IMG/VR virus record: IMGVR_UViG_3300035070_002022
Location: 1 to 58,762 of that record
Length of the DNA stretch: 58,762 nucleotides
Strand: one strand, 5' to 3'
DNA from: a virus
This document shows positions 21,790 through 26,476 of the stretch, one piece after another. The notes below the pieces were generated by a model. The model had not been told where the DNA came from. It did no database searches and saw nothing but the letters and a program-made list of their open reading frames with translations. Position 1 is the first letter of the stretch. Each line of letters begins with the position of its first letter. A program made the position numbers and the translations under genes.

Positions 21790-21824
21790 TTGCAGACGGT
21801 TTACGTAGTGTTTTAGATAATATA
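21790..21824 (+). promoter_or_regulatory. Early promoter P1
   Basis: TTGCAGACGGTTTACG, ten bases, then GATAATATA. It shares the exact 35-nt layout with ten other sites. It lies 36 nt before the ATG of the first early gene. Confidence 0.8.
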
Positions 21825-23556: not shown

Positions 23557-23828
23557 GAGTCGATGTAGAAAAAAACGGATCTCACTGAGCTAACTTAGTG
23601 AATAACTAAGCTTTTGGTAATAAATACTAGAGTAGTGTAGTCAGAGACTAACTATTAGACTAGAGTACTAATTTACTCATGGTAATAAAAGTACACTTAA
23701 AGAACTAGTATTTAATTAAATTAATATAATTACATGTTTAGGGGTGAAAGCTACAGTAAATATGGGATTATTTTAAGGAATAAGTGGTATTAAGTGCTTG
23801 CAAGTGGCTACGGTAATGGTTGTCATGG
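23557..23828 (+). other. Non-coding AT-rich stretch inside the early block
   Basis: There is no convincing ORF for 340 nt up to the next gene. It holds a CTTAG/CTAAG hairpin near 23593-23609, two ACTAGAGTA repeats (near 23627 and 23660), two GGTAATAAA copies, an unbroken A/T-rich core at 23709-23739, and a TTTAGGGGT box at 23737-23745 also present at 21719 and inverted at 28307. Candidates are an origin or an untranslated RNA. Confidence 0.45.
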
Positions 23829-23863
23829 TTGCAGACTAATTACGAACACCTTTTGATAATATA
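23829..23863 (+). promoter_or_regulatory. Early promoter P6
   Basis: TTGCAGACTAATTACG, ten bases, GATAATATA. It heads a four-gene operon starting at 23899. Confidence 0.8.
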
Positions 23864-25735: not shown

Positions 25736-25930
25736 ATGACACTAACTGAACACCAAAAAAACGAACTCAATACTGTAGCAGACTCTATTGCGTACTATAT
25801 TGAAGACCATTTACGTGAAACTATATCATGGCAAATGCCGGATAGCTTAGTAGATGATTTGCAAGAAGAACAATTCATGGACGCTATGGGATATGCGTAC
25901 GAAAAAGTATTACAATTACTAACAGAATAA
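25736..25930 (+). CDS. Acidic helical early protein, 64 residues
   Basis: The product is acidic and helical (EHQKNELNTVADSIAYYIED, then SLVDDLQEEQFMDAMGYAYE). It may form a three-helix fold. No family is recognised. The stop overlaps the 5' edge of the structured RNA candidate that follows (25931-26098). Confidence 0.65.
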   Translation: MTLTEHQKNELNTVADSIAYYIEDHLRETISWQMPDSLVDDLQEEQFMDAMGYAYEKVLQLLTE

Positions 25931-26098
25931 GTAGTATCACGAATGACAGCGTAATTAACTGAAAGCACGGTGCAAGTCCGATCCTGCAAAGGAAGATAAC
26001 TACTAGGCGAAAGATACGATTCATGATCACGTAATAGCCGCTAACCGCGAAAGGAACGCCACTTAGCTAGTGAAGGAGTTCGAATCTCCTTGCGGTTA
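25931..26098 (+). ncRNA. Structured RNA candidate with a tRNA-like 3' end
   Basis: A gene-free 170-nt stretch inside an operon. The 3' part folds as a tRNA lacking a D-arm: AACCGCG (26043-26049) pairs with TGCGGTT (26091-26097), AGGAG and CTCCT enclose a TTCGAAT T-loop (26074-26090), and CACT/AGTG closes a small central hairpin. The 5' part has AGTAGT (25930-25935) pairing with ACTACT (25999-26004) and holds CGGTGCAAGTCCG (25968-25980), a core seen both in tRNA T-arms and in cobalamin riboswitches. The length between acceptor and T-arm (24 nt) is too short for a normal tRNA. It may be a tRNA-like RNA, a riboswitch variant or an attachment-site remnant. Confidence 0.45.
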
Positions 26099-26116
26099 CT
26101 AATTTTAAACTAAACT

Positions 26117-26476
26117 ATGGGAAGACTAATTGAAATATCACCACAACAAGATGTTGTTAATAAAATTAATGCGAAAGCAGATTTTACTCACAACATAAAC
26201 CAAACAAGACTAGAGCGCTACACTGTTAGCATAAAAAATGTGTTTACAGGTAAAAACCCATCGCTATTTCTTAAAGATACATGGAAAGTGGTAGACGATG
26301 CATTTAATAGCGATCAAGAACTGCTTGGCGGTTGGCTAAGTGAAGATGATATATATTTTCTTGACTATGGATTAAGCGTAACCGATCTTAAAAAAGCTAT
26401 GAAAATAGCTAAATTTAACAAACAATTAGCAATATACGACAATGTGTCGCAAAAAGTAATACCAGTTGCAGACTAA
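26117..26476 (+). CDS. Early protein, 119 residues, unknown
   Basis: The product carries an N-terminal segment (ISPQQDVVNKINAKADFTHN), a basic beta region (RYTVSIKNVFTGKNPSLF) and a C-terminal helix (SVTDLKKAMKIAKFNKQLAI). It ends PVAD: the codons sit inside promoter P9. It lies 18 nt after the structured RNA candidate, so it is the gene most likely controlled by it. No family is recognised. Confidence 0.62.
   Translation: MGRLIEISPQQDVVNKINAKADFTHNINQTRLERYTVSIKNVFTGKNPSLFLKDTWKVVDDAFNSDQELLGGWLSEDDIYFLDYGLSVTDLKKAMKIAKFNKQLAIYDNVSQKVIPVAD

Follow-up and report, generated by a model that had tools for sequence, protein, structure and literature searches.

In the stretch of viral DNA analyzed here (the window, 58,762 nt, an IMG/VR virus record), an intergenic gap in an early-type operon had been proposed to encode a structured RNA that ends 3′ in a tRNA-like fold without a D-arm and has a cobalamin riboswitch-like core, and we asked whether a conserved RNA is present, what it resembles, and what it might do. 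All of the sequence features named in this original prediction are present in the window, and comparison of homologues makes it near certain that the segment at positions 25930–26098 encodes a structured RNA that has been conserved. The RNA runs in the direction of the operon and lies between a 64-aa ORF, with the last base of its stop codon being the first base of the RNA, and a 119-aa ORF directly downstream which, as had been noted, is of unassigned function. We favor, with a probability of roughly 0.45, the reading that it is a modular phage noncoding RNA that is excised by the host and acts in trans as a putative tRNA or tmRNA mimic; its parts are a 5′ domain (M1), a linker hairpin, and a tRNA-like structure (TLS; Table 1). 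The window terminase shares 63% identity with that of an uncultured Manatee Spring podovirus and ~43% with those of Flavobacterium phages in the genus Elemovirus, and other matches include Cellulophaga, Tenacibaculum, and Maribacter phages; these matches make a Bacteroidota host likely, and the virus is probably a flavobacterial-type podovirus of marine bacteria.

Table 1. Positions of the RNA, its parts, and its neighbors in the window, and of tag-less tmRNAs at related loci
Feature	Position	Strand	Remarks
Upstream ORF, 64 aa	25736–25930	+	no family match
M1, four-way-junction RNA domain, 75 nt	25930–26004	+	16 distinct homologues, covariation
M1 P1, AGTAGT/ACTACT	25930–25935/25999–26004	+	
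M1 P1 extension, three pairs past bulged A25998	25936–25938/25995–25997	+	
M1 P2, loop with GTAATTA	25944–25949/25959–25964	+	
M1 P3, T-loop hairpin CGG-TGCAAGT-CCG (CGGTGCAAGTCCG)	25968–25980	+	same stem in 16/16 copies
M1 P4, GCAA loop	25983–25985/25990–25992	+	
Linker hairpin, GGC-GAAAGATACGATTCATGATCACGTAATA-GCC	26006–26039	+	directly 5′ of AAC-type TLSs
D-armless TLS, AAC class	26043–26098	+	covariation among 18 variants
TLS acceptor, 7 bp, AACCGCG/TGCGGTT	26043–26049/26091–26097	+	
TLS D-loop remnant, AAAGGAACGC	GG at 26053–26054	+	
TLS small hairpin, CACT-TAGCT-AGTG	26060–26072	+	
TLS T-stem, 5 bp, AGGAG/CTCCT	26074–26078/26086–26090	+	
TLS T-loop, TTCGAAT	26079–26085	+	
TLS discriminator, A73	26098	+	
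A/T-rich short leader, CTAATTTTAAACTAAACT, TLS end to next ATG	26099–26116	+	CTAA usual 3′ of A73 in these TLSs
Downstream ORF, 119 aa (phrog_17808)	26117–26476	+	function unassigned; ATG at 26117
Tag-less tmRNA	L110:2465–2545	+	RF00023, 65.7 bits
Tag-less tmRNA	L109:1356–1438	−	RF00023, 59.0 bits
Tag-less tmRNA	L048:5432–5513	+	RF00023, 48.8 bits

Using the downstream gene together with a pattern search, we found three close relatives (L002, L003, and L004), and alignment of the neighboring sigma-factor gene gave 80 viral loci. A pattern built on the M1 core matched 20 IMG/VR stretches and had no matches in 84,980 bacterial and archaeal genomes; M1 is phage-restricted. Its P1 stem encloses CGGTGCAAGTCCG, as originally described, and continues into a three-pair extension that the prediction did not include, in which C-G is replaced by U-A in three M1 copies; P2 of the window copy keeps only three contiguous pairs and one outer pair. 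In 16 distinct copies from viral contigs, 93.5% of the pair cells are formed and 13 of the 21 pairs have double-sided changes, with P1 itself varying among phages (AGTAGT/ACTACT, CGTAGT/ACTACG, TACAGT/ACTGTA, and AACAGC/GCTGTT). None of 500 shuffles scored as high for cells paired, double changes, or covariation, and slid control versions of the structure are 21–48% paired; for further pair types, the count does not exceed that of the shuffles. Because MAFFT misaligned the variable P4, the P4 interiors were removed before these pairs were counted. The P3 loop is TGCAAGT or TGGAAGT across the 16 copies; because the search pattern fixed the P3 stretch, its invariance in the copies found later partly reflects the search itself. 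The single-sequence fold energy of the window RNA is unremarkable (z = −0.06), and we accept the structure as real despite this because the comparison of homologues is decisive. The lengths of M1 in homologues (75, 126, 75, 101, and 74 nt) do not differ by whole codons, and thus no conserved ORF runs across the RNA.

The shared CGGTGCAAGTCCG is a UGNAA-type T-loop hairpin, an element also found in cobalamin riboswitches. M1 lies upstream of a gene and combines a compact junction with this invariant hairpin; it could conceivably be a cis-regulatory riboswitch, either cobalamin-like or new, that controls the downstream gene. We regard this as very improbable. A search of positions 25850–26200 with RF00174 gave no match even at E ≤ 10, and no other Rfam riboswitch matches the window RNA. 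The GCCACT that had been likened to a cobalamin riboswitch motif is indeed present (positions 26058–26063), but it falls in a variable, covarying TLS hairpin and is not conserved (GCCGTG in L010), and the RNA has no conserved B12-box-like element (GCCACTG). In most of the contexts that we read, a TLS of the window (AAC) type, the alanine type, or the tmRNA type follows M1 and so stands between it and the gene; the genes beyond vary among phages and do not belong to one regulated pathway, and no expression switch (a terminator or a sequestered start) was identified. A T-loop hairpin with GGTGNAAGTCC is what the two RNAs have in common, and we rejected the cobalamin riboswitch on the lack of a model match, the loss of GCCACT, and the lack of pathway association. 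An FMN match in L002 is weak, at 18.4 bits (E 3.6), and we took it as chance.

The 3′ end fared better: it folds, as proposed, into an acceptor stem, one small hairpin, and a T-arm, and with just 24 nt from the 5′ acceptor strand to the T-stem, there is no space for a D-arm. We assign it to an AAC class, defined by an acceptor that starts with AAC and ends with GTT-A, and comprising at least 18 variants. Across 18 variants the structure is 97% paired, and there are 68 double-change cells compared to 22.6 in shuffles (0/1,000), with compensatory changes reaching the acceptor, the hairpin, and the T-stem. Covariation is therefore strong in both M1 and the TLS, and the compensatory changes in the two outer stems that had been suggested as support were found. 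Most AAC members have a middle hairpin with a GACG loop (TACC-GACG-GGTA, TATC-GACG-GATA, or CACT-GACG-GGTG), and the window's own CACTTAGCTAGTG hairpin is also found in the AAC TLS of the distant contig L109. Pair 3 of the window TLS is C3:G70, without the alanine identity pair G3:U70, and the tmRNA D-loop sequence (TGGTTTTGAC) is absent.

Standard tools do not recognize this RNA. ARAGORN gave no match, and neither did Rfam, including RF00005 and RF00023, at gathering thresholds or at E ≤ 10, where the sole match was a 10-bit Xist match on the opposite strand that we attribute to chance. A blastn search of the region against cultured phages matched the downstream genes only and not the RNA. 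Group I and II introns and known self-cleaving ribozymes were dismissed by eye and have no Rfam support.

The linker hairpin has the consensus GGC-GAAAGATACGATT.ATGATCAC.TAATA-GCC, and its strong matches in the loci are all directly 5′ of an AAC-type TLS; two relatives have gained a G-U in the GGC/GCC stem, and the L041 linker is cut down to GGC-GAAA-GCC. The closest relatives differ both in the place of the RNA and in its partner modules: it precedes the 119-aa gene in L003, follows a phrog_624 gene in L004, and is found further on in L002, and the junction that it occupies in the window has no RNA at all in L002 and another structured linker in L004. Because place and partners vary in this way, the RNA is not essential at the window site. 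The same small insert hairpins occur within M1 P4, in alanine-type TLSs, and in another module, and M1 itself stands ahead of two tag-less tmRNAs (L109 and L110) and several alanine-type TLSs; judging from their sequences, these RNAs are built from exchangeable, nested parts. At L101:1039–1140, L103, and L111, M1 is closed by another stem, AAACAGC/GCTGTTT, and in these three no TLS was recognized directly 3′ of M1. More conserved structured modules lie 5′ of TLSs at L057:2945–3690, L053:5140–5595, L064:4865–5220, and L052:5045–5380; they have the motifs GCTAGACGAGTAGCTTAATTAG...ACATAAGTGAATAGCTAGC, CCCAGCGAATAAATAAC...AATGTCTGGG, and TATAAGTCAGGG...AAATGACGTGCA, and share and nest small hairpin inserts.

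This variability raises the question of whether the elements are functionless, either as decayed tRNA genes or as selfish inserts between genes, and the changing position among relatives, the nested insert modules, and the T-stem mismatch in some TLSs (such as L009) are all features that such remnants could have. We consider this very unlikely, as it is at odds with the compensatory changes in M1 and in the TLS acceptor, hairpin, and T-stem, and with the conservation of the GG, the T-loop, G3:U70, and A73.

A scan of the relatives for a 7-bp acceptor with a 5-bp T-arm gave 75 matches on the coding (+) strand and two on the − strand, compared to nine on both strands together in a reversed-sequence control. 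The non-tRNA matches overlap ORFs in 7 of 54 instances, compared with 78% of random control placements, and at least 34 of the 58 loci with >5.5 kb upstream of the sigma gene carry a match, an underestimate because identical copies were merged. True tRNAs, mostly Met-CAT, are also present in the relatives; TLSs adjoin them with spacers of ~5–6 nt (L025 and L053), as in processed tRNA arrays, and sit among, and swap with, real tRNA-Met and tRNA-Gln genes. The window TLS resembles phage tRNAs in its T-arm, acceptor stem, and A73, but we rejected a tRNA identity because it has no D-stem, no anticodon arm, and no match to ARAGORN or RF00005. Of 64 TLSs, 40 have G:U as pair 3, compared with 0–5 for any other pair; these counts are not independent because many copies are related. 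Alanine-type TLSs have the form GGGCGTG-AAATGGTTAG-...-CACGTCC-A, and among 59 distinct examples, from a search that admitted C70 as well as U70, U70 is present in 57 and A73 in 55. This alanine-identity family (G3:U70 and A73) is large, with a variable helix replacing the lower half of the tRNA (for example, L064:5145–5218, L086:5151–5218, and L030:379–484), and GGGCGTGAAATGGTTAG is present in 37 IMG/VR stretches. In L016 (5418–5641) there is a 224-nt tRNA-like element, GGGTGTG...CACACCC, with a GTAGG-TTCGACT-CCTAC T-arm, G-C at pair 3, and a 193-nt insert with a short open frame.

The arrangement of these elements bears on the strongest rival to the mimic reading, namely that the TLS is a cis-acting processing signal ("tRNA punctuation") that only marks RNase P and RNase Z cuts, with no further role for the RNA; the cuts would set the stability and translation of the flanking genes. 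TLSs lie on the coding strand and end shortly 5′ of a start codon, with a constant CTAA-rich leader: CTAA is the usual sequence 3′ of A73 (44 of 59 alanine-type TLSs), the first ATG is mostly ~10–25 nt beyond it, and in five TLSs the ATG is two nucleotides past the discriminator. Moreover, both tmRNA and tRNA are RNase P substrates (PMC3985003). Punctuation leaves unexplained the conserved M1, G3:U70, the full tmRNA-like D-loops, and the exchange of upstream modules, as well as the lack of any RNA at the orthologous gene junction in L002, and we think it somewhat unlikely as the whole account; it could nonetheless hold together with the mimic reading.

Probably the most interesting single result is the presence of tag-less tmRNAs in sister phages. 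These are ~82 nt long, score above the curated RF00023 cut-off of 47 bits, and have the model positions of the mRNA-like domain deleted; an apparent tmRNA-type 5′ end in one bacterial genome (L151) has no surrounding tmRNA and is a match by chance. In tmRNA, a deformed D-arm contacts SmpB, and a G-U at the third pair (G3:U70, the alanine identity pair) is conserved (PMC3985003). The tmRNA of mycobacteriophage DS6A is little more than a tRNA-like domain (TLD), and a DS6A-like TLD molecule is a strong inhibitor of tmRNA whether or not it can be charged with alanine, perhaps because it titrates SmpB (PMC4131195). We see this as the best precedent, and by analogy it fits a window element that has no G3:U70 and keeps the tRNA-like upper half. 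Like the tmRNA TLD (RF00023, including DS6A), the window element has an acceptor and a T-arm, a GG-bearing D-loop remnant without a D-stem, and a short helix substituting for the lower half, and the DS6A copy is phage-borne as well. Unlike tmRNA, it has C3:G70, no tmRNA D-loop sequence, no Rfam match, and no mRNA-like domain with a tag frame between acceptor and T-stem, and it adds a 5′ M1; these phages also hold several different TLSs in tandem. We thus rejected a full tmRNA identity on the lack of a tag frame, G3:U70, and a model match, and the tie of the window TLS to tmRNA rests on shared architecture and on linkage in relatives.

For the favored reading, that of a trans-acting mimic, we propose that host RNase P and RNase Z would cut the RNA from a polycistronic transcript at ~26042/26043 and 26098/26099, leaving the RNA in stable form and the next gene on an mRNA with a short leader. 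Once released, the RNA would act in trans by occupying tRNA-handling factors. Its most likely target would be trans-translation (SmpB, EF-Tu, and stalled ribosomes) because the sister elements are tag-less tmRNAs or alanine-identity TLSs, and the window copy, without G3:U70, would be a nonalanylated member. M1 may serve as a binding or stabilizing platform that is swapped between these RNAs. The early-operon location, the tRNA-like form, and the fast exchange of modules among close phages could also suit a decoy or spare tRNA-like substrate that is directed against tRNA-cutting host defense nucleases and is unlinked to trans-translation. However, most tRNA-cutting defense enzymes target the anticodon arm, which the window TLS does not have, and we consider a decoy improbable. 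YrlA (bacterial Y RNA-like) RNAs, likened here by description only, are also modular noncoding RNAs with a tRNA-like module, but they differ in module order, and no such family has an Rfam match in the window.

Beyond genuine tRNAs and a small number of phage tmRNAs, there is little documentation of tRNA mimicry among DNA phages. The clade of environmental podoviruses described here has dozens of tRNA-like tails that covary; some of them are exactly a tmRNA minus its message, and the tails are linked to new structured modules. We tentatively suggest that these may constitute an undescribed class of phage RNAs, in which swappable modules are joined to D-armless tails of several identities, tag-less tmRNAs included, that would act together during infection to reprogram or block ribosome rescue and tRNA metabolism in the host. 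Our literature searches, which reached few subscription papers and only those preprints deposited in PubMed Central, turned up no account of such elements other than the DS6A TLD-only tmRNA, and an earlier description may exist. As the standard tools miss them completely, window-type elements have probably been overlooked elsewhere. With this clade, sabotage or reuse of bacterial ribosome rescue by phages through RNA alone becomes directly testable.

The window also contains ~10 copies of a 40-nt promoter-like block (TTGCAGAC..A..ACG...GATAATATA..TGA) located 5′ of early genes, at positions 21790, 21968, 22589, 22833, 23345, 23829, 24634, 25611, 26466, and 27388. These are probably early promoters and likely correspond to what the original prediction had numbered P1–P8. 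A segment of ~270 nt without an evident gene (positions 23557–23830) contains TTAGTGAATAACTAAG and other inverted-looking sequence, and may hold a further structured RNA.
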